Shown piece after piece: positions 18,540 through 51,422 of a stretch of 53,174 nt of DNA (positions are counted from its first letter, which is position 1; each line of letters starts with the position of its first letter). The stretch is taken from contig FXAI01000017.1 in the NCBI GenBank assembly GCA_900177435.1, positions 1 to 53,174 on the forward strand, read 5' to 3'. Made by a program: the position numbers and the translations under genes. Below the pieces are notes generated by a model. The model saw only the letters and a list, made by a program, of their open reading frames with translations, did not search any database and was not told where the DNA came from. The DNA is from Alteromonadaceae bacterium Bs31. GTDB taxonomy: Bacteria; Pseudomonadota; Gammaproteobacteria; Pseudomonadales; Cellvibrionaceae.

Positions 18540-19952
18540 ATGCGAAAAATAAGTGTCTTGCTTCTTTCTCTTGTTTCTTTGTTCAGCCTTAGCACTAGCC
18601 TGCTCGCCGATGAAGAGCGGGTTCGAGTTATTGTCACCAGTGATGGGGAAGCGGATGACGAATGCTCTATGGTTCGCTTTCTTCACTATGCCAATGAGTG
18701 GGATATTGAAGCTATTATCACCTCCAGCTCCCAGTACCATTGGCAGGGGCACAAATGGGCTGGTGACGATTGGGTTCAGCCTTACCTAAAAGCCTACGCA
18801 AAGCTTCGTCCCAACCTGCTTAAACACGACACAGGCTACCCCACAGCTGAATACCTTCAGGCGCGAACTTTTCTCGGCAATGTAAAAGCCGAAGGTGACA
18901 TGAAAGAGGAAACAGCCGGCTCACAGTTTATTGTAAAAGTATTACTGGACGAAACAGACCCCCGCCCAATCTGGATTCAAGCCTGGGGCGGCACCAATAC
19001 CATTGCCAGAGCACTGCTAAGTATTGAACAAAAACACCCGGAAAAAATGGCCTACGTAGCCAAAAAAATCCGGTTCTTTTTTATATGGGAGCAAGATTCA
19101 AGCTATCAGGATTACATCCGAAAAAACTGGGGAAAATACAATATAGAGACGATTATCTCCGACCAGTTTATTGCTATTTTTTATCACTGGAAAAAATACT
19201 TACCCCCGGAACAACAGCATTATTTTTCTGCACCGTGGATGAATGAAAACATCTTGAAAGAACATGGGCCATTGTGTGCACTGTATAAAGCCCACGAGAA
19301 CGGTGATTTTCGTTCTGAAGGAGACTCCCCGGCATTTCTACATATTATCCCCAACGGATTGCGTAGCCTTGAATCGCCCGATTGGGGCGGCTGGGGCGGT
19401 CGCTACGTGCGCGTGCGTGACAATACCTGGCTGGACCCGGTACAGGAGAAAAACTACAGCTACCCCGAAGGCCGATGGTACGGTAACTCTGCCTGGGGGC
19501 GTGAGCGTTTGCGTAAAGCAATCCCCAATGACAAAGCCCTTACTGAATACCTGCGACCCATCTGGCGATGGACAGAAGCCATGCAAAATGATTTTGCCGC
19601 ACGCGCAGATTGGGGCGTAAAACCCTTTAAAGAAGCCAACCACCCACCGCTAGTGGTGCTGGACCACAAGGCCGATTTAAATGCGAAGCCTGGCGCGAAG
19701 GTGGTACTCAGCGCAAAGGGTACAAGCGACCCGGATGGCAACGGCTTAAACTATCGCTGGTGGCATTACCGCGAGCCTAGCACTTACGGTAAAGAGGTGC
19801 TGATCAGCAATGCAGATCAACAAAGTGCGAATTTCATCGTGCCTAAAGAGGCAAAACCGGGCGAGACCATTCATATTATTGCCGAGGTAACAGATGATGG
19901 TACGCCTGCCCTCACACGCTACCAGCGCGTGCTTGTTACAGTGTCTCCTTAA
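18540..19952 (+). CDS. Secreted DUF1593 protein, nucleoside-hydrolase-like (paralog 1)
   Basis: A 470-residue Sde0182-type protein. The signal peptide ends near residue 23 (LLA-DEE). The N-terminal nucleoside-hydrolase-like domain opens with the acidic loop VTSDGEADDECSMVRF (D35, D39, D40), which corresponds to the calcium-binding DxDxxxDD loop of nucleoside hydrolases. Family motifs follow: [51 protein letters not shown] and QNDFAARADW. A C-terminal Ig-like domain from about 380 has KGTSDPDGNGLNYRWWHY. Enzymatic activity is unproven; I infer a glycoside (furanoside) hydrolase acting in the periplasm or outside. It is followed by a close paralog 125 bp downstream. Confidence 0.9.
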   Translation: MRKISVLLLSLVSLFSLSTSLLADEERVRVIVTSDGEADDECSMVRFLHYANEWDIEAIITSSSQYHWQGHKWAGDDWVQPYLKAYAKLRPNLLKHDTGYPTAEYLQARTFLGNVKAEGDMKEETAGSQFIVKVLLDETDPRPIWIQAWGGTNTIARALLSIEQKHPEKMAYVAKKIRFFFIWEQDSSYQDYIRKNWGKYNIETIISDQFIAIFYHWKKYLPPEQQHYFSAPWMNENILKEHGPLCALYKAHENGDFRSEGDSPAFLHIIPNGLRSLESPDWGGWGGRYVRVRDNTWLDPVQEKNYSYPEGRWYGNSAWGRERLRKAIPNDKALTEYLRPIWRWTEAMQNDFAARADWGVKPFKEANHPPLVVLDHKADLNAKPGAKVVLSAKGTSDPDGNGLNYRWWHYREPSTYGKEVLISNADQQSANFIVPKEAKPGETIHIIAEVTDDGTPALTRYQRVLVTVSP

Positions 19953-20077
19953 GTTAACAAACCCGGGCTGGGAATACGGTTTAGCAGCCAGACATAATTG
20001 TCGCCAATTAAACACGGCTATGGACTATTGCCAGTTATTTACTATGAACAGCATACTTAACTATGCGGAGTGCCTAA

Positions 20078-21484
20078 ATGAAAATCAGGTTCGTACTATT
20101 TCTACTTGCTAGCGCTTTTGCTTTATTAGCAAATCTAGCAGCAGCCAATAAACCCCGCGTACTGGTGACCAGCGACGGGGAGATCGACGACCAATGCTCA
20201 TTGGTGAGGTTTCTCCTTTACACCAACGAATGGGATGTTGAAGGCATAGTCACCTCCAGTTCTCAGTATCATTACCATGGGCACCGCTGGCCAGGCGACG
20301 ACTGGATTGAGCCATATCTTAATGCCTATGAAAAAATTTACCCCAACCTTCTAAAACACGACAAAGCTTACCCTAGCCCGTCCTACCTGCGTGTGCGAAC
20401 AGTGCTTGGAAATGTAAAAACCGAAGGAGAGATGGAAGAAATAAGTGCAGGCTCGCAACTGATAGTGAAGGTGCTGCTGGATGATTCCAAACCGCAGCCG
20501 ATCTGGCTACAAGCCTGGGGGGGAACAAACACCATTGCCAGGGCATTAAAAACAATAGAAGAGAAACATCCGAACAGGATGGCTGAGGTAGCCAAAAAAA
20601 TACGCTTTTATTTTATATGGGAGCAAGACGAAACCTATCAAAGCTATATTCGCCCCCACTGGGGCAAATATGACATCCCTACTATTATTTCAGACCAGTT
20701 TGAAGCCATAGCCTATCGCTGGAAACAGGTACAACCCCAGAGCATGCAAAGTTACTTCGAAGGCCCCTGGATGAAAGCGAACATTCTCGAAAACCACGGC
20801 CCCCTGTGCTCAAGCTATAAGGCTCATGATAACGGCGATTTTCGCTCAGAGGGTGATTCACCGGCATTTTTACACACCATTGTCACCGGGTTACGAAACA
20901 TGGAATCACCAGATTGGGGTGGCTGGGGCGGCCGCTACATTAAAGTGCGTGAAAACACATGGCTCGACCCGGTACCCGTTGAGGGCTATCAATACCCGAA
21001 AGGCCGATGGTACGGCAGCAATGGCTGGGGCAGAAGCAGCTTAAGAGAAGGAAGCAAAACGACAGAACAGCAGCGCGGGGAATATTTTAAACCCATGTGG
21101 CGTTGGTCAGATGCCATGCAGAATGATTTTGCAGCCCGAGCGGACTGGAGCGTTTTACCGTACAACAAAGCAAATCATCCGCCCGTGGTAAAACTACAGC
21201 ACGCTGAAGACCTGAGTTCAGCACCAGGAAAAAAAATAAAACTCAATGCCAAAGGAAGCTCAGACCCGGACGGCGATACATTAACTTATCAGTGGTGGCA
21301 TTACCGCGAAGCCAGTACTTACAAGGGTGCAATAGACATAGAAACCCCAGACAAACAAACAGCCTCGTTTACAGTGCCTAAAGATGCGGGTAAGGGAGAG
21401 TCCATTCACATCATTGCTGAAGTAAGTGACAACGGCGTTCCCGTATTAACACGCTATCGGCGCATTGTTCTTACGCTTAAGTAA
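20078..21484 (+). CDS. Secreted DUF1593 protein (paralog 2)
   Basis: A 468-residue close homolog of the preceding gene along its whole length, presumably a tandem duplication. The signal peptide ends about AAA-NKP (residue 23). The acidic loop is VTSDGEIDDQCSLVRF (D33, D37, D38). It shares [61 protein letters not shown] and the C-terminal SSDPDGDTLTYQWWHYREAS. The upstream sequence GCGGAGTGCCTAAATG gives a usable ribosome site. It is probably co-transcribed with paralog 1 and ends at a terminator hairpin. Retention of every family motif in both copies argues for two working enzymes, perhaps with different linkage preferences. Confidence 0.9.
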   Translation: MKIRFVLFLLASAFALLANLAAANKPRVLVTSDGEIDDQCSLVRFLLYTNEWDVEGIVTSSSQYHYHGHRWPGDDWIEPYLNAYEKIYPNLLKHDKAYPSPSYLRVRTVLGNVKTEGEMEEISAGSQLIVKVLLDDSKPQPIWLQAWGGTNTIARALKTIEEKHPNRMAEVAKKIRFYFIWEQDETYQSYIRPHWGKYDIPTIISDQFEAIAYRWKQVQPQSMQSYFEGPWMKANILENHGPLCSSYKAHDNGDFRSEGDSPAFLHTIVTGLRNMESPDWGGWGGRYIKVRENTWLDPVPVEGYQYPKGRWYGSNGWGRSSLREGSKTTEQQRGEYFKPMWRWSDAMQNDFAARADWSVLPYNKANHPPVVKLQHAEDLSSAPGKKIKLNAKGSSDPDGDTLTYQWWHYREASTYKGAIDIETPDKQTASFTVPKDAGKGESIHIIAEVSDNGVPVLTRYRRIVLTLK

Positions 21485-21529
21485 CAGGTGCAAATAACTT
21501 GGTAGGCTGATAAATAGCACCAAATGGCG

Positions 21530-21553
21530 GGGGAACTATTAAGCTCCCCTTTA
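21530..21553 (+). terminator. Terminator after the DUF1593 pair
   Basis: GGGGAACT-ATTA-AGCTCCCC forms a stem with one mismatch and is followed by TTTATA, 46 bp after the stop of paralog 2. Confidence 0.6.
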
Positions 21554-22150: not shown

Positions 22151-22327
22151 GTAAAAAATAGCATTAGCTCACGGCCTCATCCAAGCCTAACCGTTTAACC
22201 CAAAAGTACCAGCATCAGTTCTAAGACTTTTTAGCAGGTGCTTAACTTATCTTGCGCATATGGGCCAACCGCTATCTCTATTAAAGAATAAGAATAAGCA
22301 CAGACAGTCGGGACGGCTTGTTAAAAG

Positions 22328-25197: not shown

Positions 25198-25233
25198 TAA
25201 TCAGTTAAAGGCCTGAGTGCCTATTGCTTAAAG

Positions 25234-25487: not shown

Positions 25488-28301
25488 TTAGAATTTGTAG
25501 GACGCGCTAAGCAAGATATTCCTTCCTGTTGTGGCCGACTCTAAACGGCGCACTGCTTCTTCATCCACAATTTTCTCAAAGGGTTCGTCAAGTAAATTCA
25601 CAACCTCGAAATTGAAGCTCCAGTTATCGTTTAAACGGTAGCTCGATGAAAAATCGTATTGCAAATAAGGTTCGCGAATCTCCCATAAGTTACCACTTCG
25701 ATTTGGATTAGCATTCTCGTAGTATTCACTTCGATAAGCTGCTGATATACGCGCACCGAATACGTCGTTTTCGTAATAGACTGTAAAATTATATTGATCC
25801 TTAGAAAGCCCAGGCAAACGCGCATTGATATTGTCTACCCCGGGGAAGTTGTCATAACCAAACTCAGAATCAACATAAGTGTAGTTAGCCAACAAACCCA
25901 TACCGTCGATTACTACAGGAAGGTTGTCAGAAAAAACATCGAAGGGGAACTGAACAGCCAACTCAAACCCGTCAATTGTCGCACCCTCACCGTTGGTAAG
26001 CTCCGAGATCTCCCAACAGCCTTCAGGCTCTCCGCATGTACCCTCAAGCTCTTGGGATGCAGGAGAAGTTGGAGCGATTACACTTTCCGGTAAGCCGGTA
26101 GAAGCAAAGGTACCTGTGCGGGTATCACGCAGAGAGAATGTGCCCACATCCTTACTAAAGTAGGCAAAGGACATCAATCCGTCTTCTGCAAAGTACCACT
26201 CCACGGATGCATCAATATTGGTTGCTTCGGTGGATAACAAGTAAGGGTTCTGGAAATTAATAATGTAATTGAAACTATCAACAGTACCCCCTGGGCTGAG
26301 TTCGCTCAAGCCTGGGCGGGACATAACCTCCGCCCATGAAGCTCTAAGAACAAGGTCATCATTAAGCCAAAGCGCTGTATTGATTGAGGGTAAGGTATCA
26401 TCATATTTAGGACGATCAACTGTCACCCAAACGCCGGAGTTGTAACCCGACGAGCTTTGCTCTGTTTCCACATAGCGCACACCAACGTCATATAAAAACC
26501 GCATATTTCCCGAGAGGTCGTGATTACCTGTCAGCTGAATGAAAGCACCCAGGCTGTCTTCATCAATATCTCGATAGCGCCCTTGGTCTTCGCGCAAAGG
26601 AATATCGTAAACACCCAATGCTTCTGTCCAACCTTTAAGCGAAGGAGCCGCCCAAACCGTGTCCGATCCCGCGCCGACTTCACCCTCATAGCGGAAGCGA
26701 GTAGACAATTCGGCGGTTCCCGGCGCGCCGAGTAAATCATCTTCACCATCATCGTTGGTATCGCAGTCGTATAAACCTAATCCACAAACGCTACCATCAC
26801 GCCGGTCTTGTTTTGTATCTAAGGTGAATTTTTTGTAGTGTAAACCGCCGGATAAAATCAACGAGTCATTAATATCCCATTCCAAATCCAGGCTTGCGCT
26901 ATCAAAACCAGATTCCGTGGTATGTACCTGATCTCGAATCTCAGTAAGGGTAAAGATTGTGCCATCGCTAATATCTGGCCCATTAAAAGCCAGCCTTGGG
27001 AACGAATCACTGTCACCGTTGTAGTCGTAAACGTAGCCGTTATAGTCCCTGTCGTCATACATCAAGGTTGTTACGTGTGGCATGTGGCCTTTGTTACTGG
27101 ATGTACCTACTAAACCATTTAGACGCAGGGTGTCGGTAATATCCTGCTCCAAGGTTAAGGTAAACTGCTGAAAATCAGACTCGACTTTCTGATCGTACGC
27201 TTCGGAGCGCACCCAGGCATTATCCACTTCCATTCCAGTAATGGAGTCATTACCGCGACCATATTTGTCCGGGTTACCCTCAATATCAAAAGAAGTCACA
27301 TCCATGCCACCCTCATTGCCACGGAATAATACTTCAGCTGTTTTAAAGGTATTTTTCCTATCTAACTGGGCAACCATTGCATCGAAAGTAAGTTCAGTTG
27401 AATCAGTGGGAGCCCACTGTAAAGCACCAGTTATACCCAAGCGCTCCTGTTCAAGTACATTTGCGCCATAACGAGGGATGCGCGGATGAAAGCCATTAGA
27501 AACAGCGGCACAACCAGGGTCGGTTTCTGCTGCCCGATCCGGGTTACATTCCACGCCCTCAACTGAATTAAAAACGGATTTCTGCCAGCGAACACTATTA
27601 CCCGTTAAAACATGGATACCCGTTTCTGAGTAGGCTAATGAAGCAGAAGCACCCCACTTTCCTTCCGGGTCATTGTAGGCATAGAGGCCTGTAATTCTAG
27701 GGAAAATATCACCGCTATTGCTGTTATGAGAAGCCGCACCTCGAACCAGGAAGGTGCTGCCTTCGTCATAATTAAAAGGTCTACCGGTGTTGAGATCAAC
27801 AACGGCGCCAAGAGAACCCTCAGAGATTGACGCACTTGCCGTTTTACGCACAACCAGGTTGTTAAACAACTCAGAAGCGAACATATTAAAGTCAAATGCC
27901 CGGCCATTATTGTTACCATCGCCAGCCCTGGTTTCCATGCCATTAATGCGCACCATGGTATAACGACCAGAGAGCCCTCGTACGGTAATTTGTTGACCTT
28001 CACCGTTGGTCCGAGTAATGGCTACACCGGGTATGCGCTGCAAGGATTCTGCCAGATTAAGATCTGGAAAGTCAGCCATATCTTCAGCAACCACAGCATC
28101 TACCTGACCGGTTGTCTCTCTTTTTTGGTCCAGAGCAACTTTTAAACTTGTCCTGAAGCCCGTGACATACAGCTCCTCTTCAATTAGGTCTGCGTTATCC
28201 TGAGCGAGAGCAGCTAAGGGCATGCCCGCACAGACGGACATAACCGCGACAGCCAATGAATTCCGGCTAAAACGTTTTTGATATTTTGTGAAATCTACCA
28301 T
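25488..28301 (-). CDS. TonB-dependent receptor (oligosaccharide uptake)
   Basis: An outer-membrane, energy-coupled importer of 937 residues. A signal peptide (VMSVCAGMPLAALAQ) is followed by a TonB-box-like EEELYVTG near residue 42 and a plug domain with DLNLAESLQRIPGVAITR, ITVRGLSGRY and VRINGMETR, typical of sugar-type receptors in Caulobacter and Cellvibrionaceae. A 22-strand barrel ends in the required terminal aromatic (LLSASYKF). No SusD-like partner is present, as expected outside Bacteroidetes. Its place among pectinase genes and next to an AraC regulator points to pectin or apiose-bearing oligosaccharides; the substrate is inferred from context. Confidence 0.93.
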   Translation of the reverse strand: MVDFTKYQKRFSRNSLAVAVMSVCAGMPLAALAQDNADLIEEELYVTGFRTSLKVALDQKRETTGQVDAVVAEDMADFPDLNLAESLQRIPGVAITRTNGEGQQITVRGLSGRYTMVRINGMETRAGDGNNNGRAFDFNMFASELFNNLVVRKTASASISEGSLGAVVDLNTGRPFNYDEGSTFLVRGAASHNSNSGDIFPRITGLYAYNDPEGKWGASASLAYSETGIHVLTGNSVRWQKSVFNSVEGVECNPDRAAETDPGCAAVSNGFHPRIPRYGANVLEQERLGITGALQWAPTDSTELTFDAMVAQLDRKNTFKTAEVLFRGNEGGMDVTSFDIEGNPDKYGRGNDSITGMEVDNAWVRSEAYDQKVESDFQQFTLTLEQDITDTLRLNGLVGTSSNKGHMPHVTTLMYDDRDYNGYVYDYNGDSDSFPRLAFNGPDISDGTIFTLTEIRDQVHTTESGFDSASLDLEWDINDSLILSGGLHYKKFTLDTKQDRRDGSVCGLGLYDCDTNDDGEDDLLGAPGTAELSTRFRYEGEVGAGSDTVWAAPSLKGWTEALGVYDIPLREDQGRYRDIDEDSLGAFIQLTGNHDLSGNMRFLYDVGVRYVETEQSSSGYNSGVWVTVDRPKYDDTLPSINTALWLNDDLVLRASWAEVMSRPGLSELSPGGTVDSFNYIINFQNPYLLSTEATNIDASVEWYFAEDGLMSFAYFSKDVGTFSLRDTRTGTFASTGLPESVIAPTSPASQELEGTCGEPEGCWEISELTNGEGATIDGFELAVQFPFDVFSDNLPVVIDGMGLLANYTYVDSEFGYDNFPGVDNINARLPGLSKDQYNFTVYYENDVFGARISAAYRSEYYENANPNRSGNLWEIREPYLQYDFSSSYRLNDNWSFNFEVVNLLDEPFEKIVDEEAVRRLESATTGRNILLSASYKF

Positions 28302-28920: not shown

Positions 28921-29065
28921 TAATGTCTAACAACAAGACCACCGCATTCTTCAAAGGTGCCCTAGCTGTTAAGGCATTGGTATGCGCTTTGAGAACCTCA
29001 AGCGCGTTGCGTGTACCAGATTACACTGGCCAAGTAGGCCATGTTTTATCGGAGAGCAATTAGTA

Positions 29066-34110: not shown

Positions 34111-34111
34111 C

Positions 34112-39869: not shown

Positions 39870-41159
39870 ATGAGTCCATCCCTTACACTAAAAACTTGTA
39901 CAAGCAGCTTATTTTTTGTAACCGTTTTTATTTTCGCGTGCCCCCTGGCATTTAGCGAAGAAACACCGAAACACCGGGTAATTGTATCTTCCGATATTGG
40001 CGGAACCGACCCTGATGATTTTCAGTCAATGGTTCATCTGCTGCTCTATGCAGACACTATCGATTTAGAGGGAATCATTTCATCACCGTTCGGGCCGGGG
40101 CGAAAAACCGATATTTTGCACGTTATCGATCAATATGCACTGGACTACAAAAATCTCAAATCCCATGCTGCAGACTACCCCAGCCCCAAACAACTTAGAG
40201 CCATAAGTAAGCAAGGCGAGACATTGCGCGCACCCTACCAGGGTTTTCGTCAAGCGACGGAGGGATCTAAATGGATAATTAAACGCGCACGCGTTAAAGA
40301 TGCCCGCCCGCTTTATGTACTGGTTTGGGGCGGCATCGAAGATCTCGCCCAAGCCCTGCACGATGCTCCGGATATTCTGCCTAAACTACGCGTGTACTAT
40401 ATTGGCGGCCCCAATAAAAAATGGAGCCCAGACGCCTACCAATATATAGCGGAACATCACCCCAAACTTTGGATTATTGAATCCAATGCCACTTATCGAG
40501 GTTGGTTTGTGGGAGGAATACAGAGTGGTGAATGGGGTAATAAATCATTTGTGAATACACATATTGCAGGCCGCGGTGCAATGGCTGATTTTTTTGTAAC
40601 CCAACTCGGGGGCGTTATAAAAATGGGGGACACACCCTCATTAACCTGGCTTTTTCACGAAACCCCCGAGCAAGCCGATGCGGGCGGCTGGGGTGGCCAA
40701 TATACACGTGCATGGACTCGCCCTTACAAAGTATTTGAGCGCCTCACCACAGATTCAGACCAAATTGAAGAGTTCAGTATATTTGAATTAGTACTCCCAT
40801 TGAAAAAAGATAGACCCGAAAAAACTTTCGCAACTATGAATATTGGCAACCAGTCACTTGTGGGCCACATTGAAAACAACAAAGTACATTTTCGCTTTTG
40901 TCCAAAAGCCGCTAAAAAATTCGAATACACTCTGGAAAGCAATGATGCTTCGCTCAACGGAGCAAAAGGAAGCCTCACAGCCGTAGCCACCCAGCCTGAT
41001 CAGGCTATCGATAATAATTGGCCCAACTGGTGGGTGGACAACCCCGCTCCCGAATTTAAAGAAGGGCCACATATTGGCGCAAAAACAGTAAACCGCTGGC
41101 GTAAAGACTACCTCAGTGATTTTGCCCAGCGTATGGCAAGAGCAAAAAAAACGAAATAA
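39870..41159 (+). CDS. Secreted DUF1593 protein (divergent paralog 3)
   Basis: I start at the ATG at 39870; the frame stays open into the permease but without a signal peptide start there. 429 residues: a signal peptide (SSLFFVTVFIFACPLAFS), then the acidic loop SSDIGGTDPDDFQSMV (D42, D47, D49, D50) and the family motifs VWGGIEDLAQAL, MGDTPSLTWLFH and GGWGGQY. The WGG and GDTPS regions are kept, but the C-terminal third differs from the other four copies: the NDFAARxDW segment and the DPDGD Ig strand are not recognisable, and PNWWVDNPAPEFKEG takes their place. It is likely a periplasmic hydrolase with different specificity. Confidence 0.85.
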   Translation: MSPSLTLKTCTSSLFFVTVFIFACPLAFSEETPKHRVIVSSDIGGTDPDDFQSMVHLLLYADTIDLEGIISSPFGPGRKTDILHVIDQYALDYKNLKSHAADYPSPKQLRAISKQGETLRAPYQGFRQATEGSKWIIKRARVKDARPLYVLVWGGIEDLAQALHDAPDILPKLRVYYIGGPNKKWSPDAYQYIAEHHPKLWIIESNATYRGWFVGGIQSGEWGNKSFVNTHIAGRGAMADFFVTQLGGVIKMGDTPSLTWLFHETPEQADAGGWGGQYTRAWTRPYKVFERLTTDSDQIEEFSIFELVLPLKKDRPEKTFATMNIGNQSLVGHIENNKVHFRFCPKAAKKFEYTLESNDASLNGAKGSLTAVATQPDQAIDNNWPNWWVDNPAPEFKEGPHIGAKTVNRWRKDYLSDFAQRMARAKKTK

Positions 41160-41220: not shown

Positions 41221-42603
41221 GTGCGCTATCTAAAAACCTTTCTATTCACAGTGAGCGTGTTGGGCTTGTCATTGCCAACTCTTGCTGACAAGGAAACCTC
41301 CTCACGGATTCCCCAATACCCTGTCAGCTATGACTACCCGAAAGCCACAGAGATCAAAAACGCTCTGGATCGCGTGCGTGATTACTACCAATCCACAAGC
41401 ACACGACAAATTGTTGACAAGCGCACAGGCAAAGCCATTACTGATTTATCCAAAGCGAATAAATTCGCCATTCCCTCTGAGGGATTAGCCAATGAATGGA
41501 GTTACACGCACGGTGTGGTACTTTCTGCATTTGTTTACATCGAGCAGCTTACCGGCGATAAAAACTACGTAAGCAACAACGTACAGTTTTTTGATTTTGT
41601 TATTGCTTCGCTACCTTATTTTGAAACGCAAATAGAAACTTTTGGCTACAAGGGAAAAATTCCCAACTGGGGCAGAATACTTAATTTCCATGCACTGGAT
41701 GATTGCGGCTCAATCGGCGCGGCTTTAATCAAAACCTACCAAGGGAATAAAAACGAACAATACCTCCCCCTTATCGAGCGTATAAACGAACACGTATCCA
41801 GCAATCAGTTTAGGCTCAAAGACGGCACCCTGGCCCGCCACCGACCACAATATGAATCCATCTGGGCGGATGACCTCTATATGAGTGTGCCCTTCCTCGC
41901 AAATATGGGCGCACACACAGGGGAAAGCAAATATTTCGATGATGCCGCCAAACAAATTCTGCAAATGGCAGACCGCCTGTATATTCCAGAAAAAGAACTA
42001 TTTGATCATGGATGGAGCGTAAGCTCCGGTGATTACGATCCCCGTTTTTACTGGGCACGGGCAAACGGCTGGACACTCATGGCAATGGCAGAACTACTGG
42101 AGCTTATGCCAAAAGACCATCCAAAACGCGAAGCCATCCTGCATCTGTATCGTTCCCTGGTAAGGTCACTGGCTAATTTACAGGACGGCACTGGCTTCTG
42201 GCACAACCTTTTGGATAAACCCAATACCTTTACCGAAACCTCTGCCACAGCAATGTTTACCTTTGCCATTGCCAAAGGTATTAATGAGGGCTGGATTAAC
42301 CACGTATACGGGCCCGTTGCCGTAACTGGCTGGAACGCAATCAATACGCGAATACTGGAAAGCGGCGCCGTAGACGGCACAGTGGAGGGAACCACTTTCG
42401 CACACGATAACAGCTACTATTTTTACCGAGGGCGCAGCATTCACGCTACCCATGGCTATGGTCCCGTGCTCTACGCCGGCGCAGAAATGATACGCTTGCT
42501 CAACAATGAAAAACTCGTTGTACAAAAAGCTGTTCCGGGAAAACAAAACAGTACTCATCACTTTCTCCTAAAAAGTGAATGGCCAGCGGAAAAAAATAAG
42601 TAA
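41221..42603 (+). CDS. GH105 unsaturated glucuronyl/rhamnogalacturonyl hydrolase
   Basis: A 460-residue secreted enzyme starting at GTG 41221 after AGGAGT. The signal peptide ends near residue 22 (LPTLA). The alpha/alpha-barrel carries GH88/GH105 motifs: LDDCGSIGAALI, IWADDLYMSVPFLANMG with paired Asp, WARANGWTLMAMAELLE and ETSATAMFTFAIAKGI. These enzymes hydrate the 4,5-unsaturated uronic acid left by pectate or rhamnogalacturonan lyases, releasing a keto-uronate. In this operon it would process the ends produced by the PL1/PL3 lyases in the periplasm. Confidence 0.9.
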   Translation: MRYLKTFLFTVSVLGLSLPTLADKETSSRIPQYPVSYDYPKATEIKNALDRVRDYYQSTSTRQIVDKRTGKAITDLSKANKFAIPSEGLANEWSYTHGVVLSAFVYIEQLTGDKNYVSNNVQFFDFVIASLPYFETQIETFGYKGKIPNWGRILNFHALDDCGSIGAALIKTYQGNKNEQYLPLIERINEHVSSNQFRLKDGTLARHRPQYESIWADDLYMSVPFLANMGAHTGESKYFDDAAKQILQMADRLYIPEKELFDHGWSVSSGDYDPRFYWARANGWTLMAMAELLELMPKDHPKREAILHLYRSLVRSLANLQDGTGFWHNLLDKPNTFTETSATAMFTFAIAKGINEGWINHVYGPVAVTGWNAINTRILESGAVDGTVEGTTFAHDNSYYFYRGRSIHATHGYGPVLYAGAEMIRLLNNEKLVVQKAVPGKQNSTHHFLLKSEWPAEKNK

Positions 42604-42661: not shown

Positions 42662-44269
42662 ATGCAAGCATGTAAACACACTGCAAGATATGTATCTCGT
42701 GTACTAACTACGATATTACTCTGCCTTTGGTGTTACAGCGCTTTGGCTGATAACGTAAGCAAGGTAGAGAAATGGGGCATATTTGAACTTACACTGGACG
42801 GGCCAGTTAAAGGCAACCCTTTTTTGGACGTGCAACTTTCCGCGACGTTTACACATGCAAATATGAGCATAAACGTAGATGGCTTTTACGACGGCAAAGG
42901 TCAGTTTAAAATTCGTTTTATGCCAGAAAAAACCGGTACTTGGCGCTACACCACCTTCAGTAACAACTGGGAATTAAGCAATAAGCGGGGAGAGATACGA
43001 GTCACCCCGCCTCAACAGGGAAACCACGGCCCGGTAGGTGTAGTAAACACCTTTCATTTCGCTTATGCCGATGGAACACCCTTCAAGCAGGTGGGTACCA
43101 CATCCTATACCTGGACACACCGCCCCGAAAAAATTGAACAACAAACTCTGGCAAGTTTGGCCACCTCCCCCTTTAACAAGCTGCGTATGTGCGTATTCCC
43201 CCAAACTCACGGCAGCAGAGCTATGCCACCAAAACGTTTTCCATTCCTGGGAAAATCCACTAAACCCGACTACACACGCTTTAACCCAAAATTTTTTCAA
43301 CACTTGGAAAAACGCGTCGGCCAGTTGCGAGAACTAGGAATCGAAGCGGATCTTATCTTGTTTCACCCCTACGATGACAATCATATTTGGGGTTTGGATA
43401 ACATGCCCCCCGAAGTTGAAGAGCGATATCTGCAGTACATTGTTGCGCGGCTTTCCGCCTACCGGAATGTCTGGTGGTCTATGGCCAACGAATTCGACTT
43501 CGTGCGTACCAAGAAGGATGAAGACTGGGACAGAAATTTTAAAACTGTCATGGCGGCCGACCCCTACAAGCATTTGCGATCCATCCACAATGGGAAACGC
43601 TTTTACGATAACACCAAACCCTGGGTTACCCACGCCAGTATTCAGAATGGCTTTGCCGTTACCAGCCCCGGTACTGCGCAACTTTATCGAGATGTCTACA
43701 ACAAACCCATCGTCTACGATGAAGTTGAGTATGAAGGTAATCACAGCTCGCGCTGGGCGCAACTTAGCGGCAAAGAGCTGGTGCATCGATTCTGGTCCGG
43801 AACTGTCGCGGGTACCTATGTTGGTCACAGTGAATTTTTTGTAGCACCGGGAGATAAAGACCCATTCGTATGGCTGGGGCAAGGTGGCACACTAAAAGGC
43901 GAAAGCCCTACTCGTCTGGCTTTTCTTAAAAAAATACTGGAGCAGAGCCCGGCAGAGGGAATTGAACCCATCGATAAATGGTGGAACCCGAATATCGGCG
44001 GACAAGCAAATAACTACTATCTACTATATTTCGGACGTGAAACGCCAACAGAATGGTCCTTTGAGCTTAAAGGAAAAGGCATTACCGAAGGGGGTACCTT
44101 TGCGGTGGATATTATCGACACCTGGAATATGACAATCACACCCGTTGAGGGACTATTTACGGTTCAGGCTCGAGATAAGTACAGTTTTGGCGATAAAGAT
44201 AACAGGGTAATTTCTCTTCCCGGCAAAGAAGGAATCGCTCTGCGCATTACCCGCTTTCACAACAATTAA
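42662..44269 (+). CDS. DUF5060/DUF4038 glycoside hydrolase, apiosidase-like
   Basis: 535 residues. A signal peptide (ILLCLWCYSALA) is followed by an N-terminal beta-sandwich DUF5060 (VEKWGIFELTLDGPVKGNPF), a TIM-barrel DUF4038/apiosidase-like catalytic domain (FKQVGTTSYTWTHRPEK), and a C-terminal DUF5605-like sandwich. Candidate catalytic acids are E277 in SMANEFDF and E354/E356 in IVYDEVEYEG, an arrangement of clan A hydrolases. DUF4038 is the domain of GH140 endo-apiosidases that release apiose-linked side chains from rhamnogalacturonan II; that relation and this operon support an apiosidase role, but the exact CAZy family is not provable here. Confidence 0.8.
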   Translation: MQACKHTARYVSRVLTTILLCLWCYSALADNVSKVEKWGIFELTLDGPVKGNPFLDVQLSATFTHANMSINVDGFYDGKGQFKIRFMPEKTGTWRYTTFSNNWELSNKRGEIRVTPPQQGNHGPVGVVNTFHFAYADGTPFKQVGTTSYTWTHRPEKIEQQTLASLATSPFNKLRMCVFPQTHGSRAMPPKRFPFLGKSTKPDYTRFNPKFFQHLEKRVGQLRELGIEADLILFHPYDDNHIWGLDNMPPEVEERYLQYIVARLSAYRNVWWSMANEFDFVRTKKDEDWDRNFKTVMAADPYKHLRSIHNGKRFYDNTKPWVTHASIQNGFAVTSPGTAQLYRDVYNKPIVYDEVEYEGNHSSRWAQLSGKELVHRFWSGTVAGTYVGHSEFFVAPGDKDPFVWLGQGGTLKGESPTRLAFLKKILEQSPAEGIEPIDKWWNPNIGGQANNYYLLYFGRETPTEWSFELKGKGITEGGTFAVDIIDTWNMTITPVEGLFTVQARDKYSFGDKDNRVISLPGKEGIALRITRFHNN

Positions 44270-44306: not shown

Positions 44307-45581
44307 ATGAATCAAACTGAGCTCCGTACTAGCGAAGAAGAACCTAAAATCACCCGCCAGCAATGGAAGTGGACGGTGCTAGCAGGCATGGCGTCCTATC
44401 TGGATGCAGGCTCGATTGTTGCCCTGGGTGCAGGCCTGGCTCTTTTTCAGAGTTACCTAAACCTCAGCAACTCAGCTGTAGGTGCACTCGCGGCAATCGG
44501 CCCCAATGCCATCGGCTGTGCCATTGGCGCTTTTTTGGGGGGTTGGCTAGGAGACAAAATTGGCCGCAAACGAATTTACCAATACGACCTTCTAGTATAC
44601 GCAGCAGGTATTCTGTGTATTGCCCTGGCGGTTAATGTAGAAATGCTATTTATAGGGACATTTGTGGTCGGCGTCGCCGTGGGAGCGGATGTACCCACCT
44701 CACTTGCTTTGGTGGGAGAACTGGCGCCAGCAAAAGCGCGAGGCAAATTACTGGGGCTTACACAGGTAGCCTGGAGCCTCGGGCCTGTAGTGGTACTTTG
44801 GCTCGCAGTGCTACTGGCACCTCTGGAATTATTGGGAATACGTATAATATTTCTACATTTGTTTGTTGCTGCCATTGTTACCTGGGCACTTCGTCGCGGC
44901 TTAAGCGAATCGGCCCGTTGGCAGTCAGCAACAAAAGTGGGGAGGACCAGTATCCGTAAACTGTTCCGCGGAGCACATCTCAAAGCCCTTATCTGGACGG
45001 CCACCATTTATCTTTTCTGGAACCTGGCCGCAGGTACCGCAGGAATCTTTAACCCCTATTTTATAAACAAGTTGAACGCTGGCAGCCAGGCAGCAAGCGT
45101 TGCACTGGCCAGTGCAGGCTTTGTTATTACCTTGATCGTAACCGCTAGCGTTTTTATGCGATTTTCCGACCGCAGTTTTAGATCCCGGAAATGGCTTTGG
45201 GGCGTAGGCGCCGTGATGCAAATTGTTGCTTATGCTTTGTTCTTGTTTTTACCATTTAGTGTGCCAGTCATTATTGCCAACATCCTGCTATTTTCTGCGG
45301 GCGCCGCTCTTGCCGGCGAAGCCTTCTATAAAGTATTTAGCCAGGAGCTTTTTCCCACCTTGCTTCGCGGTACCGCTCAAGGTATTACTTTTGGCATAGC
45401 GCGAACAATTCTTGGATTTTGGAGCTTTTTTGTACCAGTGCTCGCAAGTGCAGGCATTGGTGAAGTGGCAGGCCTGCTCACCCTCTTCCTACTCATTAGC
45501 GGAGGCGTGGGCTTTTTCTTCATGCCAGACACTTCGGGGAAAAGCCTCGAACAGATCGAATCCGAACGAGCAGAGCTTTAA
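44307..45581 (+). CDS. MFS sugar porter
   Basis: A 424-residue inner-membrane transporter with about twelve hydrophobic helices. The family signature GGWLGDKIGRKRIY lies in the loop after helix 2, and PTSLALVGELAPAKARGKLL resembles the sugar-porter PESPR/GRR region. The downstream GH78 gene starts eight bases after its stop, which suggests paired function: import of a rhamnoside or rhamnose-containing disaccharide, then cytosolic cleavage. The substrate is inferred. Confidence 0.88.
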   Translation: MNQTELRTSEEEPKITRQQWKWTVLAGMASYLDAGSIVALGAGLALFQSYLNLSNSAVGALAAIGPNAIGCAIGAFLGGWLGDKIGRKRIYQYDLLVYAAGILCIALAVNVEMLFIGTFVVGVAVGADVPTSLALVGELAPAKARGKLLGLTQVAWSLGPVVVLWLAVLLAPLELLGIRIIFLHLFVAAIVTWALRRGLSESARWQSATKVGRTSIRKLFRGAHLKALIWTATIYLFWNLAAGTAGIFNPYFINKLNAGSQAASVALASAGFVITLIVTASVFMRFSDRSFRSRKWLWGVGAVMQIVAYALFLFLPFSVPVIIANILLFSAGAALAGEAFYKVFSQELFPTLLRGTAQGITFGIARTILGFWSFFVPVLASAGIGEVAGLLTLFLLISGGVGFFFMPDTSGKSLEQIESERAEL

Positions 45582-45589
45582 TAAGGTCT

Positions 45590-48340
45590 ATGATCAATTC
45601 CACTATTAATAAGCTGCGGTGTGAATATCTGCTTAACCCTCTGGGTATCGATGAAGCGAAACCACGGCTTAGCTGGCAACTGCAAAGCGATAGGCGAGGC
45701 GCTCGCCAGCTTGCCTATCGGCTTCGTGTTGCCACCACACAAACGCGACTCGAACGCGGAAATGCAGACCTCTGGGACAGTGGCCTGGTACAAAGCCAGC
45801 AAAGCACACACGTAGAGTATGGTGGCAAAAAGTTGTTATCTCGCATGCACTGTTTCTGGAAAGTCGATGTGTACGACGACCAGGAGCAATGCTTAACATC
45901 CGAGATTAACTTTTGGACAATGGGCTTACTGGAACAAAGTGACTGGCAAGCGGAATGGATTACAGCAAATCCACACATATTTACACAGGACCCACAAGCC
46001 TTCGCACCAAGCCTCACTGAAGCTGGTAGCGTTTGTTATTTCAGACGAGATTTTTCGTTAGCACAAAAAGTGGTTAGCGCCACACTCTATGCCAGTGCTC
46101 GCGGGATCTTTGAATTAACTATTAATGGCAAGCGCGTAGGTAGCGACCTTTTTGCTCCAGAGTGGACCGACTACCACAAGCGCATTCACTACCGCAGCTA
46201 CGATGTCACCCACCTTCTCAACAGAAATAAAAATTGTATTGCAGCAAGCCTGGGTGATGGCTGGTGGTCCGGCTATGTGGGTTGGCAAGAGCAGCGTGGC
46301 CGCTACAACTCACTTGAAAACAGTGTACTGCTGCAGTGCGAAATTGAATTGGTTAACGGTTCTCACCTCACTTTAAGCAGTGGCACGGACTGGACCTGTA
46401 ATACGGGCCCTATTCTTTTTTCTGATTTTATGATGGGTGAGTTATACGACGCACGCCGTGAACACGAGGCCTGGGATACGCCCAATTTCACAGAGGATGC
46501 AGCCTGGTTACCCGTAAAGCTGGCAAAACCGCCTACTGCACATTTAGTCGCTCAACTCAGTGAACCAGTAAGAATTGTTGACGAGTTAGCACCTGTTTCC
46601 TTCACGGAAGTTAAACCTCAAATATTTATTGTTGATCTCGGCCAGAATATTACGGGCTGGGCTCGAATGACTCTGCCCCAGCTACCTGCTGGCACCCAGA
46701 TCACACTCCGCTACGGAGAGCGCCTGGATGCGCAAGGTAATCTGTATACAGAAAATCTTCGAAGGGCAAAAGCCACAGACACCTACATTACACAAGGCAA
46801 GCCTTCGGAACACTACCAGCCCCATTTTACCTTTCACGGTTTTCAATATATCGAACTAAGGGGTTTGCCTGCCCACACGGATATGGCAAAGGTGGAAATA
46901 CTCGGCTGTGTCATTCACTCCGCCACACCGCCGGCGGGCCAGTTTGAATGCTCCCATGCGGGCGTAAATCAGATTTGGTCGAACGCCTATTGGTCGCAAA
47001 AGGATAATTTCCTTTCCGTACCGACGGATTGCCCGCAACGGGACGAGCGGCTTGGCTGGACGGGTGACGCTCAGGTATTTATGCGCACCGCCACCTACAA
47101 CATGGACGTGGCCGCTTTTTTCAGCAAATGGATGCGAGATATTAGCGACGCGCAAACAGAAGAAGGGGTTTTCCCAGATACCGCTCCGCGCTTAAGAGAA
47201 GACTGTAATTTTGTTGGCCTCGGTAACTTGGGCGGCGGTGCTGGCTGGGCAGACGCGGGCATCACTATTCCCTATCAACTTTGGAAAATATATGGCGACC
47301 GCCGAGTGCTACAGCAACACTACAGCGCTATGGTTCGCTGGCTAAACTGGATAGAGGAAAATAACCCTAAGGGGCTGCGCACGAATAAACTCGGCAATAA
47401 CTACGGCGACTGGCTCTGTATTCCCAGCGATACCTCATTTGGTACCCACTCACCAATGAAAAGCCTTCTGGCAACTGCATTCTGGGCAGATGGCTGCAAC
47501 AAACTTAGCGAAATAGCTACCGCCTTGAATTACAGCGAAGATGCTCAACGCTTTAGCTTGCTGTTTAATAAGGTCCGAGAGGCTTTTCAAAACGAGTGGT
47601 TATTGAAGGATGGTGAATTAAGCGTTAACACACAAACAGCTTACTTACTGGCTTTGACATTTAATTTACTACCCAACGATAAACGCGAGCGAGCAGCGGA
47701 AAAGCTGGTAGACAATATTCAGCAGCAAGACTGGCATTTAAATACCGGTTTTATTGGTGTCGGCCTCCTTAACCCTCAATTGAGCTTGGCAGGAAAAAAT
47801 GCAGTTGCTTACAAACTGTTATTACAAGAAAGTTATCCTGCATGGTTGTACCCTGTGTTACACGGTGCGACTACCATTTGGGAGCGCTGGAATGGCTGGA
47901 CAGAAAAAGACGGCTTTTTTAACCCACACATGAACTCGTTTAACCACTATTCACTTGGCTCAGTCAGTGAGTGGCTCTACAGATATATTGCTGGAATCGA
48001 GCTAAACCCAGACAAGCCCGGGTTTCAAGATTTTGTTCTTTGCCCTTACATCGATAGTTCCCTAAGCTACGCTAAAGCGAGTTATCAGACTATGTTCGGC
48101 CAGATTGAAAGCCACTGGCAATACAAGCAGCAGACTATTCAATGGGATATTCGTATACCGGCAAATTCCAGCGCACGGGTAGGTATTCCCCACGATACTA
48201 TAGATAGCATCGCAATTGATAATGCGCCTGCCAGTACTTTTCCCAGCGATGCCAGCTTCAACAAGGGGCGTACATGGCTTGATCTGAGCGCAGGCCGCTA
48301 TCGCATAAGCTGGCCGTGCTCTATGCTTGTTGAAGAATAA
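45590..48340 (+). CDS. GH78 alpha-L-rhamnosidase, cytoplasmic
   Basis: A 916-residue multidomain enzyme. It has no signal peptide. N-terminal beta-sandwich domains (RCEYLLNPLGIDEAKPRLSW; SARGIFELTINGKRVGSD) precede an alpha/alpha-barrel with the catalytic region VPTDCPQRDERLGWTGDAQV, WADAGITIPYQLWKIYGD, and NSFNHYSLGSVSEWLYRYI near the end. A C-terminal sandwich closes it. It releases terminal alpha-L-rhamnose. Cytoplasmic location and the adjacent MFS gene indicate action on an imported small rhamnoside and not on polymer. Confidence 0.92.
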   Translation: MINSTINKLRCEYLLNPLGIDEAKPRLSWQLQSDRRGARQLAYRLRVATTQTRLERGNADLWDSGLVQSQQSTHVEYGGKKLLSRMHCFWKVDVYDDQEQCLTSEINFWTMGLLEQSDWQAEWITANPHIFTQDPQAFAPSLTEAGSVCYFRRDFSLAQKVVSATLYASARGIFELTINGKRVGSDLFAPEWTDYHKRIHYRSYDVTHLLNRNKNCIAASLGDGWWSGYVGWQEQRGRYNSLENSVLLQCEIELVNGSHLTLSSGTDWTCNTGPILFSDFMMGELYDARREHEAWDTPNFTEDAAWLPVKLAKPPTAHLVAQLSEPVRIVDELAPVSFTEVKPQIFIVDLGQNITGWARMTLPQLPAGTQITLRYGERLDAQGNLYTENLRRAKATDTYITQGKPSEHYQPHFTFHGFQYIELRGLPAHTDMAKVEILGCVIHSATPPAGQFECSHAGVNQIWSNAYWSQKDNFLSVPTDCPQRDERLGWTGDAQVFMRTATYNMDVAAFFSKWMRDISDAQTEEGVFPDTAPRLREDCNFVGLGNLGGGAGWADAGITIPYQLWKIYGDRRVLQQHYSAMVRWLNWIEENNPKGLRTNKLGNNYGDWLCIPSDTSFGTHSPMKSLLATAFWADGCNKLSEIATALNYSEDAQRFSLLFNKVREAFQNEWLLKDGELSVNTQTAYLLALTFNLLPNDKRERAAEKLVDNIQQQDWHLNTGFIGVGLLNPQLSLAGKNAVAYKLLLQESYPAWLYPVLHGATTIWERWNGWTEKDGFFNPHMNSFNHYSLGSVSEWLYRYIAGIELNPDKPGFQDFVLCPYIDSSLSYAKASYQTMFGQIESHWQYKQQTIQWDIRIPANSSARVGIPHDTIDSIAIDNAPASTFPSDASFNKGRTWLDLSAGRYRISWPCSMLVEE

Positions 48341-48389
48341 TTTTTATAAATGAACAATCGCTACCCAATGCTCGCAGCGGAGAAACCTT

Positions 48390-49874
48390 ATGAGTCCCAC
48401 TAATTCCCCAACAGCAAAAATCATTGCATATAGAAAACTCTTCTGCCAGTGCCTTTGTCTTGTGGCTAGCCTCTTGGTATTTAACGCGCCTGGTGCGGCA
48501 GAAGACAACGGCACGCCAGAGAAACAGCGTCTGTTTGTATTAACGGATATCGGCGGCGACCCCGATGATCAAATGTCACTGGTGCGTTTACTCACCTACG
48601 CTAACCATTTCGATATCGAAGGTCTTGTGGCCACCTCTACCGGCCCCAGTAAAGACCAGGTAAACCCGCACTACATAAAAAGAATTGTATCAGCCTATCG
48701 CAAAGTTCAAGACACGCTTGAACTTCATGAACCAGGTTATCCAAAAGCGAAAACTTTGCTCAAAACCATAAGCAAAGGTTTACCAGTACACGATATGAAA
48801 GCAGTTGGCGAGGGACAAGACTCACCGGGTTCCCAGCTGTTAATCGAAGCAGCGGATAAACAAGACGAAAGACCTCTTTGGATTAATGTGTGGGGCGGGC
48901 CCAATGTGCTTGCACAGGCATTGTGGAGAGTTCGCGAAAACCGCAGCCCGGAAGACCTGGCGAAGTTTGTTTCCAAGCTCCGTGTTTATTCCATATCCGA
49001 CCAGGACAATAGCGGCCCGTGGATACGAAAAAACTTCCCCGAATTATTTTATATCGTCACACCTGGCGTAAATGCCGGTGGCGGTTTCCATCATGCAACC
49101 TGGATCGCCATTGGAGGAGATAAATTCCACGGTCGATTTGGCGGCGCTGATTTCTCCGTTGTGACCAATGAATGGCTGGATAAAAACGTACGCAGCAAAG
49201 GTCCACTCGGTGCCGCCTACCCCCACTGGAAATATATGATGGAAGGAGATACTCCGTCCTTTTTCAATTTACTTGATATTGGCTTGAGCAAACCTGAACG
49301 CCCTGATTGGGGCGGCTGGGGTGGACGCTATGAGCTGTATACACCAAGAAAAGAAAAATGGTTTTTGGAAGAGGAGACCCGCCCTATCTGGACCAACGTA
49401 CAAGACGAAGTACTGGGTAATGACGGGGAGTGGCACACGAGTAATCACGCTACAATCTGGCGCTGGCGCAATGCCTTCCAAAATGATTTTGCCGCGCGCA
49501 TGGACTGGACCATTAAAACCTACGAGCAAGCCAACCACCCGCCTGTACCCAAACTGGATCACCCCGAACGCCTAAAAGCAAAAGCAGGTGAGCGCGTCGA
49601 TTTGAGTGCTAGCGCCTCCACAGACCCGGACGGGGACCAACTGTCTTACCACTGGCTTGTGTATGAAGAAGCTGGAACCCGAGCCATGTCCAATTCGAGC
49701 ACAGGCTTAAAACACGACATTGTTGGCTTCGACAAAGATAAAGCACACCTTATTGTGAAAACAAACCGGGTTATGCCTCCGGGAAAGGGCACCATGCATG
49801 TAATACTCGCAGTAACGGACCACGGTACGCCGAGATTGACACGCTACAAGCGCGTCATTATTGAGGTGCAATAA
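48390..49874 (+). CDS. Secreted DUF1593 protein (paralog 4)
   Basis: 494 residues. The N-terminal hydrophobic segment (CLCLVASLLVFNAPGAA) is a signal peptide. The acidic loop is LTDIGGDPDDQMSLVR (D53, D57, D59, D60). Family motifs: [64 protein letters not shown] and [16 protein letters not shown]-terminal Ig-like domain has STDPDGDQLSYHWLVYEEAG. It is closest to the next gene and differs from paralogs 1-2 by the GG-D-P acidic loop and the longer HATWIAIGGDKFHGRFGGAD segment. Confidence 0.9.
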   Translation: MSPTNSPTAKIIAYRKLFCQCLCLVASLLVFNAPGAAEDNGTPEKQRLFVLTDIGGDPDDQMSLVRLLTYANHFDIEGLVATSTGPSKDQVNPHYIKRIVSAYRKVQDTLELHEPGYPKAKTLLKTISKGLPVHDMKAVGEGQDSPGSQLLIEAADKQDERPLWINVWGGPNVLAQALWRVRENRSPEDLAKFVSKLRVYSISDQDNSGPWIRKNFPELFYIVTPGVNAGGGFHHATWIAIGGDKFHGRFGGADFSVVTNEWLDKNVRSKGPLGAAYPHWKYMMEGDTPSFFNLLDIGLSKPERPDWGGWGGRYELYTPRKEKWFLEEETRPIWTNVQDEVLGNDGEWHTSNHATIWRWRNAFQNDFAARMDWTIKTYEQANHPPVPKLDHPERLKAKAGERVDLSASASTDPDGDQLSYHWLVYEEAGTRAMSNSSTGLKHDIVGFDKDKAHLIVKTNRVMPPGKGTMHVILAVTDHGTPRLTRYKRVIIEVQ

Positions 49875-49946
49875 GCGTAAACACAGGTAAAAACTATTCT
49901 TACCTGTTAATCGATATTCACTACTCCTTCAGCGAGGATATCAACA

Positions 49947-51422
49947 ATGTTTTATAGGCTTAAAAGTCGGAAAGACACAGCTAAAAAAACATTTGGTATC
50001 CGTTTTTTTAGTTTTTTGCTTATTTCTACTTTGTCATGCCAAACGACAATTGCAAATGATTCTGCCTGGCAAAAACCTAGGGTATTCGTATTAAGCGATA
50101 TAGAAAACGAACCCGACGACGCACAGTCTCTGGTTCGCTTTCTGGTTTATTCCAATCAATGGGATGTAGAAGGCATTGTCGCCACCACCTCCGTTCACCA
50201 AAAAAATCGTACGGCCGCCGCTAGAGTAAGACGAATTATCGAAGCTTACGGTAAAGTTCAAAAAAACCTGGCTAAACATGAAAAAGGCTTCCCAGAAGCC
50301 AAAGATCTACTAGCAGTAGTCAGTGAAGGTAAAGCACTTTACGGCATGAGCGCGGTTGGCAAAGGCATGGACTCACGCGGCTCGGAAGCTTTAATAGCCG
50401 CAGTAGATAAAAAAGATACCCGCCCACTGTGGGTAACGGTGTGGGGCGGCCCAAATGTGCTCGCCCAAGCCTTATGGAAAGTAAACGAAACACGCTCGAA
50501 AGAGGAGCTTAAAACGTTTATTGAAAAACTGCGCGTGTACACTATATCTGACCAAGATGATTCAGGCCCATGGATTCGCCAAAACTTCCCCTCACTTCAC
50601 TATATAGCCAGCCCCGGCTTCCATAGTGGAGGCGGCTACCATTTCGCAACCTGGAGCGGAATCAGTGGCGATAATTTTCATGCGCGATTTACCGGAGCAG
50701 ATTTCGAGATAGTAGATAACCCTTGGTTGGATCGTAATATTCGCCGTAAAGGGCCACTCGGTGCAGAGCATCCCCGTACAGAATATTTATTAGAAGGCGA
50801 TACACCAAGCTTTCTAGGCTTGATCAATAATGGCTTGAACTCGCCGGAAAACCCTCACTGGGGAGGCTGGGGCGGACGCTACGAGTACTACACGCCACGC
50901 ATGCAAAAACACATGCTGGAAGCTGAGACGCGCCCCTTTTGGAGCAATGCACAAGATGAGGTGCTGGGTACAGATGGAAAATGGCACACCAGTAACCACG
51001 CAACCATTTGGCGCTGGCGCAATGCCTTCCAGAACGATTTTTCTGCACGTATGGATTGGACAATAAAAGAATTCCAAGACGCAAACCATCCACCCGTCGT
51101 ATTACTCGGCCATCCACGTATGCTGAATGCCAAAGCTGGAGAACGTGTTGAGCTGGTGGCAAAAAACTGCTCCGACCCCGATGGAGACAGCTTAAGTTAC
51201 AACTGGTTTTACTATCAAGAACCAGGCACTTTTACAACGGCCAGTGCGCGCTCAGGGCAAGCGGTAAAGGTAAACAATTTTGACCAGGCTAAAGCCTGGT
51301 TTGAGGTTCCTACAAAGCGCGTTTTACGAAAAGGCTCCATGCATTTTATTCTCGCTGTAACTGACCACGGCAAGCCAAGGCTGACGCGCTACGAAAGGGT
51401 TATTGTGAATGTCGCACAATAA
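49947..51422 (+). CDS. Secreted DUF1593 protein (paralog 5)
   Basis: 491 residues and the last gene of the operon. A long basic N-region precedes the hydrophobic signal core ([17 protein letters not shown]); a Cys in it makes a lipoprotein possible, but the box is poor. The acidic loop is [16 protein letters not shown] (D51, D57, D58). It shares [74 protein letters not shown] and the Ig-like [20 protein letters not shown] with paralog 4, so the two arose by tandem duplication. GAGGATATC precedes the start. Confidence 0.9.

Follow-up and report, generated by a model that had tools for sequence, protein, structure and literature searches.

Apiose is a defining sugar of rhamnogalacturonan II and of the pectins of duckweeds and seagrasses, and many plant glycosides contain it too; GH140 is, to our knowledge, the one apiosidase family that can be named. 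It is known that nucleoside hydrolases carry the motif DxDxxxDD. For the protein family DUF1593 (PF07632, now Sde182_NH-like) a structure has been solved, 2YHG, which we take, from the Pfam name, to be that of Sde_0182 of Saccharophagus degradans. The fold, the family and the idea of a furanose role are thus already known: PMC8910321 describes Sde_0182 as inactive on nucleosides and, citing Hehemann 2011, proposes a furanose-interacting, sugar-interacting module. On the sugar side, strains of Escherichia coli, E. fergusonii and Pectobacterium with a D-apiose gene cluster of the E. coli SE15 type grow on D-apiose and K-12 does not (PMC13001218). In this study, we analyzed a stretch of 53,174 nucleotides from Alteromonadaceae bacterium Bs31, a consumer of plant cell walls (contig FXAI01000017.1; hereafter the window); the stretch encodes five DUF1593 paralogues (D1 to D5) and an operon with split transketolase genes of the aptA and aptB type (apt genes). 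Our analyses showed that linkage to apt genes is a property of subfamilies of DUF1593 and not of the whole family, and the best reading of the apt-linked proteins, unproven and in our view about as likely as not, is that they are calcium-dependent apiofuranosidases.

All five open reading frames that the first-pass annotation had assigned to DUF1593 are present at their places and match PF07632 (E 1e-57 to 1e-112; 196-373 bits against a curated cut-off of 26.8), and the Sde0182_C domain (PF21027) was found by Pfam in every one except D3. The reading frame of D3 has a listed TTG start at 39813 and an ATG start at 39870. Signal-peptide-like N termini were seen in five of five, by eye only, which agrees with the export predicted earlier. 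The described contexts also held: D1 and D2 lie between a pectate lyase with carbohydrate-binding modules (CBMs) at 15603 and a PF03211 lyase at 23944, and D3, D4 and D5 lie downstream of an apiose-type gene set with its importer. Pfam placed both transketolase halves, an FGGY kinase, an isomerase and a CUT2 importer in this single locus, the isomerase and DeoR regulator genes being divergent and just upstream of the set that runs from aptA to the permease. The whole genome holds nine DUF1593 copies. Among the four outside the window, one is plain, one stands beside a pectinesterase, one carries CBMs, and one is a GH10 xylanase, CBM5/12, DUF1593 and Sde0182_C fusion (L011, 6492-10148).

Linkage was examined from the DUF1593 side in a scan with alignment A1 that covered about 85,000 species genomes and gave at least 592 pattern matches and 561 relatives; the best 79 loci were kept and are close to D5 by construction. 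Calling apt genes at 42% identity for aptA or 40% for aptB, we found one or the other within about 10 kb of DUF1593 in 24 of these 79 loci, and a further five had an operon-type transporter only. When only the 50 loci with full flanks (at least 20 kb) were counted, 21 had apt genes and 24 had apt genes or the transporter. The median distance between DUF1593 and apt was 3.8 kb, and both lay on the same strand in 21 of 24 cases (reading frames taken stop to stop). For the presence of apt genes, the chance expectation was about 0.0003-0.0015 per locus according to the prevalences in two sampled groups, the highest included, and far below one in total. The linked loci belonged to Bacteroidota (13), Verrucomicrobiota (4), Pseudomonadota (4), Bacillota (1), Acidobacteriota (1) and Planctomycetota (1); the co-occurrence proposed as a check in the first-pass annotation was found for close relatives far beyond chance and in six phyla. 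Up to five DUF1593 copies stood in one locus. The operon occurs in one more genome of the genus, the sister genome G359, which has, in one region, relatives of D2, D3, D4 and D5 alongside a PF13204 protein of high score, GH140L (Table 1), GH105, transporter, kinase and aptAB, its D2 relative lying inside the apt locus; in six further genomes of the genus, neither gene was found.

The reverse test started from aptB only, in five groups, where 5/247, 12/188, 15/213, 6/196 and 40/104 genomes were matched, each count including the centre genome. The centres (G374, G376, G378, G379 and G381), which had been reached via DUF1593 loci, were dropped, as were G532 (38% AptB) and L156 (kinase absent, 39-41%); L137-L142 were outside the count, and for Paenibacillaceae 30 of the 40 non-centre aptB places were taken. 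DUF1593 was present in 12 of the resulting 62 loci, against an expectation of about 0.02 based on the density in the Bacteroidota class sample (19 DUF1593 places in 247 genomes, 4 Mb genomes assumed), and twelve is far out even at twenty times that density. By group, the positives were 8/14 in the order of G381 (Cytophagales type), 1/11 in the class of G376 (Verrucomicrobiota), 1/3 in the class of G374 (Bacteroidota), 2/30 in the family of G378 (Paenibacillaceae type) and 0/4 in the order of G379; L146, L164 and L174 are short contig-end stretches, in which absence of DUF1593 counts for little. Within the Cytophagales-type group, DUF1593 lay between aptB and the gene for the sugar-binding protein (SBP) in seven of 14 loci (L165, L166, L169-L173). 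At the level of genomes, with the centre excluded, DUF1593 occurred in 3/3 apt genomes of the Bacteroidota class sample versus 9/243 others (p 9e-5), G532 being counted among the others and the former figure becoming 3/4 if it is moved; in two of the three apt genomes, DUF1593 and apt genes are not neighbours.

The link does not extend to the family at large. In the window's own family, DUF1593 was detected in 18/144 genomes and window-type aptB only in the window genome and G359 (genome-level p 0.12, from one informative genome, too few), and in the class DUF1593 was detected at all in only 3/229 genomes, the window genome included. Co-occurrence of the whole family with apiose genes was rejected accordingly, as 16 of the 18 own-family DUF1593 genomes were without window-type aptB; the suggested association stands for close relatives and for the Bacteroidota class sample. 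Linkage fell with distance from the window paralogues: where a copy was at least 55% identical to one of them, apt genes were linked in 41/85 cases, versus 7/39 below this level, in a table that left out the aptB-selected loci and short-flank copies without apt, in which copies within a locus are not independent, and which undercounts linkage (some "no" copies, those of L060, L056, L073 and L059, have apt genes in the same locus but more than 10 kb away). On the tree, linkage required 49 changes versus a shuffled mean of 57.1, a value as low being reached in 4/500 shuffles.

The acidic site is strongly conserved. Among 201 DUF1593 sequences, Asp51, Asp57, Asp58 and Asp285 (D5 numbering) were present in 198, 201, 198 and 198, respectively, the last of them standing in a GDTP/GDSP motif. 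The annotated acidic loop occurs in all five window proteins, but its given spacing was incomplete: D-x3-DD applies to D1 and D2, D-x5-DD to D4 and D5, and D-x6-DD to D3. Together with the later Asp, this presumably matches the spacing of the nucleoside-hydrolase calcium site, and from their order along the sequence we infer that these residues would be equivalent to the calcium ligands there. The idea of a nucleoside-hydrolase fold acting on furanosides gains from this invariance but is not new, a furanose role being already in print (PMC8910321). Membership among the nucleoside hydrolases by sequence was considered and rejected: no nucleoside hydrolase family other than PF07632 was matched by any of 37 members at E up to 5 (HMMER filters on), and the nucleoside-hydrolase domain found only 2YHG by profile and no solved nucleoside hydrolase, the other profile matches lying outside the domain or carrying no weight. 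As for export, the apt-linked Bacillota members L053, L195 and L196 have no signal peptide visible by eye, nor has L071, in which no apt gene was seen, and a divergent Selenomonas member has one. The latter (27% to D5) accompanies a beta-glucoside phosphotransferase system (PTS), a rhamnosidase and GH1; in this Selenomonas ruminantium plasmid operon (L208, 1313-10601) the order is rhamnosidase, MBL hydrolase, beta-glucoside PTS, DUF1593 and GH1, which looks like the uptake of a decorated plant glycoside.

Judged by its genes, the window operon likely serves apiose. The cluster of E. coli SE15 has the same make-up, including DUF2291, a gene that is likewise present in Rhizobium apiose clusters, and the window proteins are 49% (AptA), 42% (AptB), 36% (kinase), 42% (ATPase), 39% (permease) and 33% (SBP) identical to those of SE15. 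For the window isomerase, identity is 75% with the product of a gene adjoining aptA and aptB in Rhizobium sp. SL42 and 82% with a Croceibacterium protein encoded directly upstream of DUF1593; of the five aptB loci in the order of G379 (Novosphingobium), four have a counterpart at 81-86%. Among five proteins inspected at the isomerase position elsewhere, those of three Bacteroidota loci belonged to the L-fucose isomerase C-terminal family over the cut-off, and those of two Paenibacillaceae loci matched this family below it. Alphaproteobacteria (L017, 13868-14848; L070, L104, L154, L155, L157, L158) have TIM-barrel isomerases that share 79-86% identity with that of the window, while the apt proteins of the same loci are 42-50% identical and the DeoR regulator up to 75%; this excess may reflect either recent transfer or strong constraint. 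In four apt clusters of the Verrucomicrobiota group (L149, L150, L151, L153), an MFS carrier (70-74% identity to that of the window) is again paired with a GH78 protein that has no signal peptide (58-63%), which suggests import followed by cytosolic cleavage of a rhamnosyl-apiose unit.

A PF13204 apiosidase-like protein, GH140L, which the first-pass annotation had not mentioned, is encoded at 42662 in the same operon as D3 to D5, and PF13204 itself matched none of the five window DUF1593 proteins. We used "GH140-type" as a loose tblastn label for at least 28-30% identity to three probe proteins; of the two added probes, one strongly matched 5MSY, which we take to be GH140, and 8T9W, and the other, from L050, matched 8T9W more weakly. 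GH140-type genes stood beside DUF1593 in 12 of the 79 DUF1593-selected loci, five of them with apt, and were present in 21 of the 62 aptB-selected loci; GH140L relatives also adjoin aptAB in Monoglobus. Strict alternation between DUF1593 and GH140-type genes was rejected, given these 12 loci and the confounding by phylogeny. A DUF5060 protein 45% identical to that at 42662 adjoins the OiaX-type apiose operon on pRL12 of Rhizobium johnstonii (L203, 9992-11512; L205).

If the preferred reading is right, the apt-linked subfamilies (D1/D2, D3, D4 and D5) would be exported glycoside hydrolases, apparently cytosolic in the Bacillota examples, that release D-apiose from plant apiofuranosides, among them apiogalacturonan, further side chains of pectin or small glycosides bearing apiose. 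A calcium ion held by Asp51, Asp57/58 and Asp285 would activate water for direct, inverting displacement at C1 of the furanosyl unit, in the manner of nucleoside hydrolases but on an O-glycosidic bond, and the paralogues may divide the linkages among themselves. The freed apiose would then enter through the CUT2 importer, be isomerized and phosphorylated, and be split by AptAB. The fuller proposal, that the apt-linked clades constitute a new GH family of nucleoside-hydrolase-fold, calcium-dependent beta-D-apiofuranosidases that occurs in six phyla or more, each locus having several paralogues to split the apiosyl linkages of apiogalacturonan and apiosylated glycosides, and that forms a second route independent of GH140, is tentative, and we put it somewhat short of an even chance. 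It is the neighbouring genes that make apiose the best-supported sugar.

Several observations weigh against this interpretation. Neither apt nor transporter was found in 26 of the 50 full-flank DUF1593 loci, no DUF1593 was found in the stretch read in 50 of the 62 aptB-selected loci, and eight of the 12 positives there come from one order, so that it is the DUF1593-selected loci which show the spread over phyla. Linkage is scattered over the tree with many origins and weak clustering, not one clade. The operon already encodes an apiosidase-like GH140L, and DUF1593 and GH140-type genes stood together in none of the 62 aptB-selected loci (p 0.005, phylogeny uncorrected), an exclusion that may mean substitution or only ancestry. 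The proteins could instead be furanosidases for other sugars, for example alpha- or beta-L-arabinofuranosides of pectin or xylan, with apt genes merely sharing pectin and plant-glycoside islands, a reading that we consider rather unlikely but deserving of weight. The GH10-CBM-DUF1593 fusion and the CBM-bearing copy in the same genome would fit it, and so would relatives elsewhere: Catenovulum (36% to D5) has DUF1593 among GH115-family genes, Croceicoccus (49%) near uronate genes with GH43 about 5 kb off, and Spirosoma (50%) about 5 kb from two beta-L-arabinofuranosidase-domain genes. However, shared islands account poorly for the several loci in which DUF1593 is part of the apt operon itself, with aptB on one side and the SBP gene on the other. 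Window-protein probes for GH78, GH105 and PL1 found neighbours in only 3, 6 and 2 of the 79 loci versus 24 for apt, which is a weak argument because single-protein probes miss diverged members of broad families. That DUF1593 only binds sugars or serves as a scaffold, with no catalysis, in line with its old name "cellulose-binding" and the published furanose-interacting hypothesis, appears improbable to us. The report of Sde_0182 inactive on nucleosides and proposed to interact with furanoses (PMC8910321), which also tells against the apiofuranosidase reading, and the CBM fusions speak for such a domain, but invariance reaches 99-100% for the four acidic positions that presumably bind the metal, which would be unusual for a binding-only fold, and as many as five copies occur in a single locus. 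In addition, the Bacillota copies have no signal peptide visible by eye, therefore hydrolysis of imported small glycosides fits them better than binding of a wall polymer.

The sugar of the operon has also to be weighed. It might be ribose or another pentose, which DUF1593 would release, for instance from ribofuranosides; we regard this as very unlikely. The SBP scored 382 bits against the ribose-binding protein of Thermotoga maritima, its best solved match, and 219 bits against 5IBQ, which we take to be the Rhizobium binding protein in complex with apiose and whose pocket is very similar to that of the window SBP. Against apiose, the ribose contacts visible in passages of PMC2630998 (Asn, a Trp/Phe pair, Asp-Arg, Phe, Asn, Asp, Gln) are all conserved in the window SBP when mapped by hand, with residue names from that paper and positions counted by hand. 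A ribose operon of Thermotoga is reported to include a transketolase gene along with genes for two predicted D-arabinose enzymes (PMC3750489); this "ribose" operon may itself also concern apiose. Likewise against apiose, the tree of 38 AptB sequences places that of E. coli SE15 on a long basal branch, not nested with the window type. On the other hand, no ribokinase-type domain was found among the operon proteins scanned, the gene set, DUF2291 included, is of the growth-tested E. coli type, and GH140-type genes recur in such loci and in the OiaX apiose operon. The genes concerned are collected in Table 1.

Table 1. Genes around the pectate lyases and the apt operon in the window
Feature	Position	Strand	Basis or remark
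Pectate lyase PF00544, secreted, with CBM2 and CBM6/35-type modules and long TP linkers	15603..17807	+	Pfam
D1, DUF1593 + Sde0182_C	18540..19952	+	Pfam E 1.5e-74; motif SDGEADD
D2, DUF1593 + Sde0182_C	20078..21484	+	Pfam E 2.2e-75
301-aa protein, N-terminal hydrophobic segment	22328..23233		No Pfam match at E 0.001
Pectate lyase PF03211	23944..25197	+	Pfam
TonB-dependent receptor, TonB-Xanth-Caul type	25488..28301	-	NCBIfam TIGR01782
AraC-type regulator	28982..29965	+	Pfam
ISO, TIM-barrel protein (AP_endonuc_2), presumed aldose-ketose isomerase of the pathway	30041..31024	-	Pfam
DeoR-family regulator	31219..31998	-	Pfam
aptA-like transketolase N-terminal half	32276..33112	+	Pfam; 49% to E. coli SE15 AptA
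aptB-like transketolase C-terminal half	33112..34110	+	Pfam; 42% to E. coli SE15 AptB
FGGY kinase, GlpK-like, presumed apulose kinase	34079..35605	+	36% to E. coli SE15 AplK
CUT2 sugar-binding protein (SBP)	35625..36614	+	Best solved match 2FN8, named ribose-binding protein
DUF2291 periplasmic lipoprotein	36673..37338	+	Pfam
Sugar ABC transporter ATPase	37335..38867	+	Pfam
ABC permease	38774..39853	+	Pfam
D3, DUF1593 without Sde0182_C	39870..41159	+	Pfam E 1.4e-57
GH88/GH105-type unsaturated glycuronyl hydrolase	41221..42603	+
GH140L, DUF5060 + PF13204 Apiosidase-like + DUF5605	42662..44269	+	Pfam; solved homologue 4N0R
MFS sugar transporter	44307..45581	+	Pfam
GH78 alpha-L-rhamnosidase, no evident signal peptide	45590..48340	+	Pfam; N terminus by eye
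D4, DUF1593 + Sde0182_C	48390..49874	+	Pfam E 3e-106
D5, DUF1593 + Sde0182_C; presumed calcium/catalytic site Asp51, Asp57, Asp58, Asp285	49947..51422	+	Pfam E 1e-111

No activity of DUF1593 was found in the literature searched, which covered few subscription journals, among the matches listed; the apiose linkage and the subfamily pattern were not found there either and are, within that scope, new here. If confirmed, the activity would make these proteins a new family of glycosidases whose fold is already known. It would give a second, unrelated and metal-dependent family of apiosidases on a nucleoside-cleaving fold, show O-furanosidase activity arising from N-ribosidase chemistry, assign a function to a DUF1593 family spread over many phyla and provide tools for apiose release. 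The genomic linkage leads to a specific prediction, open to a quick test, about a family for which a structure has been solved.

Compared with the described systems, the window shares its catabolic and transport set (aptA, aptB, aplK, the CUT2 importer and DUF2291) with the D-apiose cluster of E. coli SE15, in which, by contrast, SDR genes replace the isomerase and no DUF1593 or GH140-type gene was found in the 40 kb read. The GH140 apiosidases (8T9W is titled Apiosidase) resemble the DUF1593 proteins in presumably freeing apiose units from pectin but belong to a different Pfam family, that of the window's PF13204 protein. With nucleoside hydrolases, DUF1593 would share the Asp pattern D-x3/5/6-DD and the later conserved Asp of the calcium site, whereas the first Asp of the DxD pair is absent, the proteins are exported to judge by their N termini, and most have an Ig-like C-terminal domain. 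Sde_0182 (PF07632 and PF21027) differs from the window proteins in having three carbohydrate-binding domains (PMC8910321), while its presumed structure, 2YHG, aligns with both of their domains and shares with them the acidic motif TDMGADPDD and the motif EGDTPAF.

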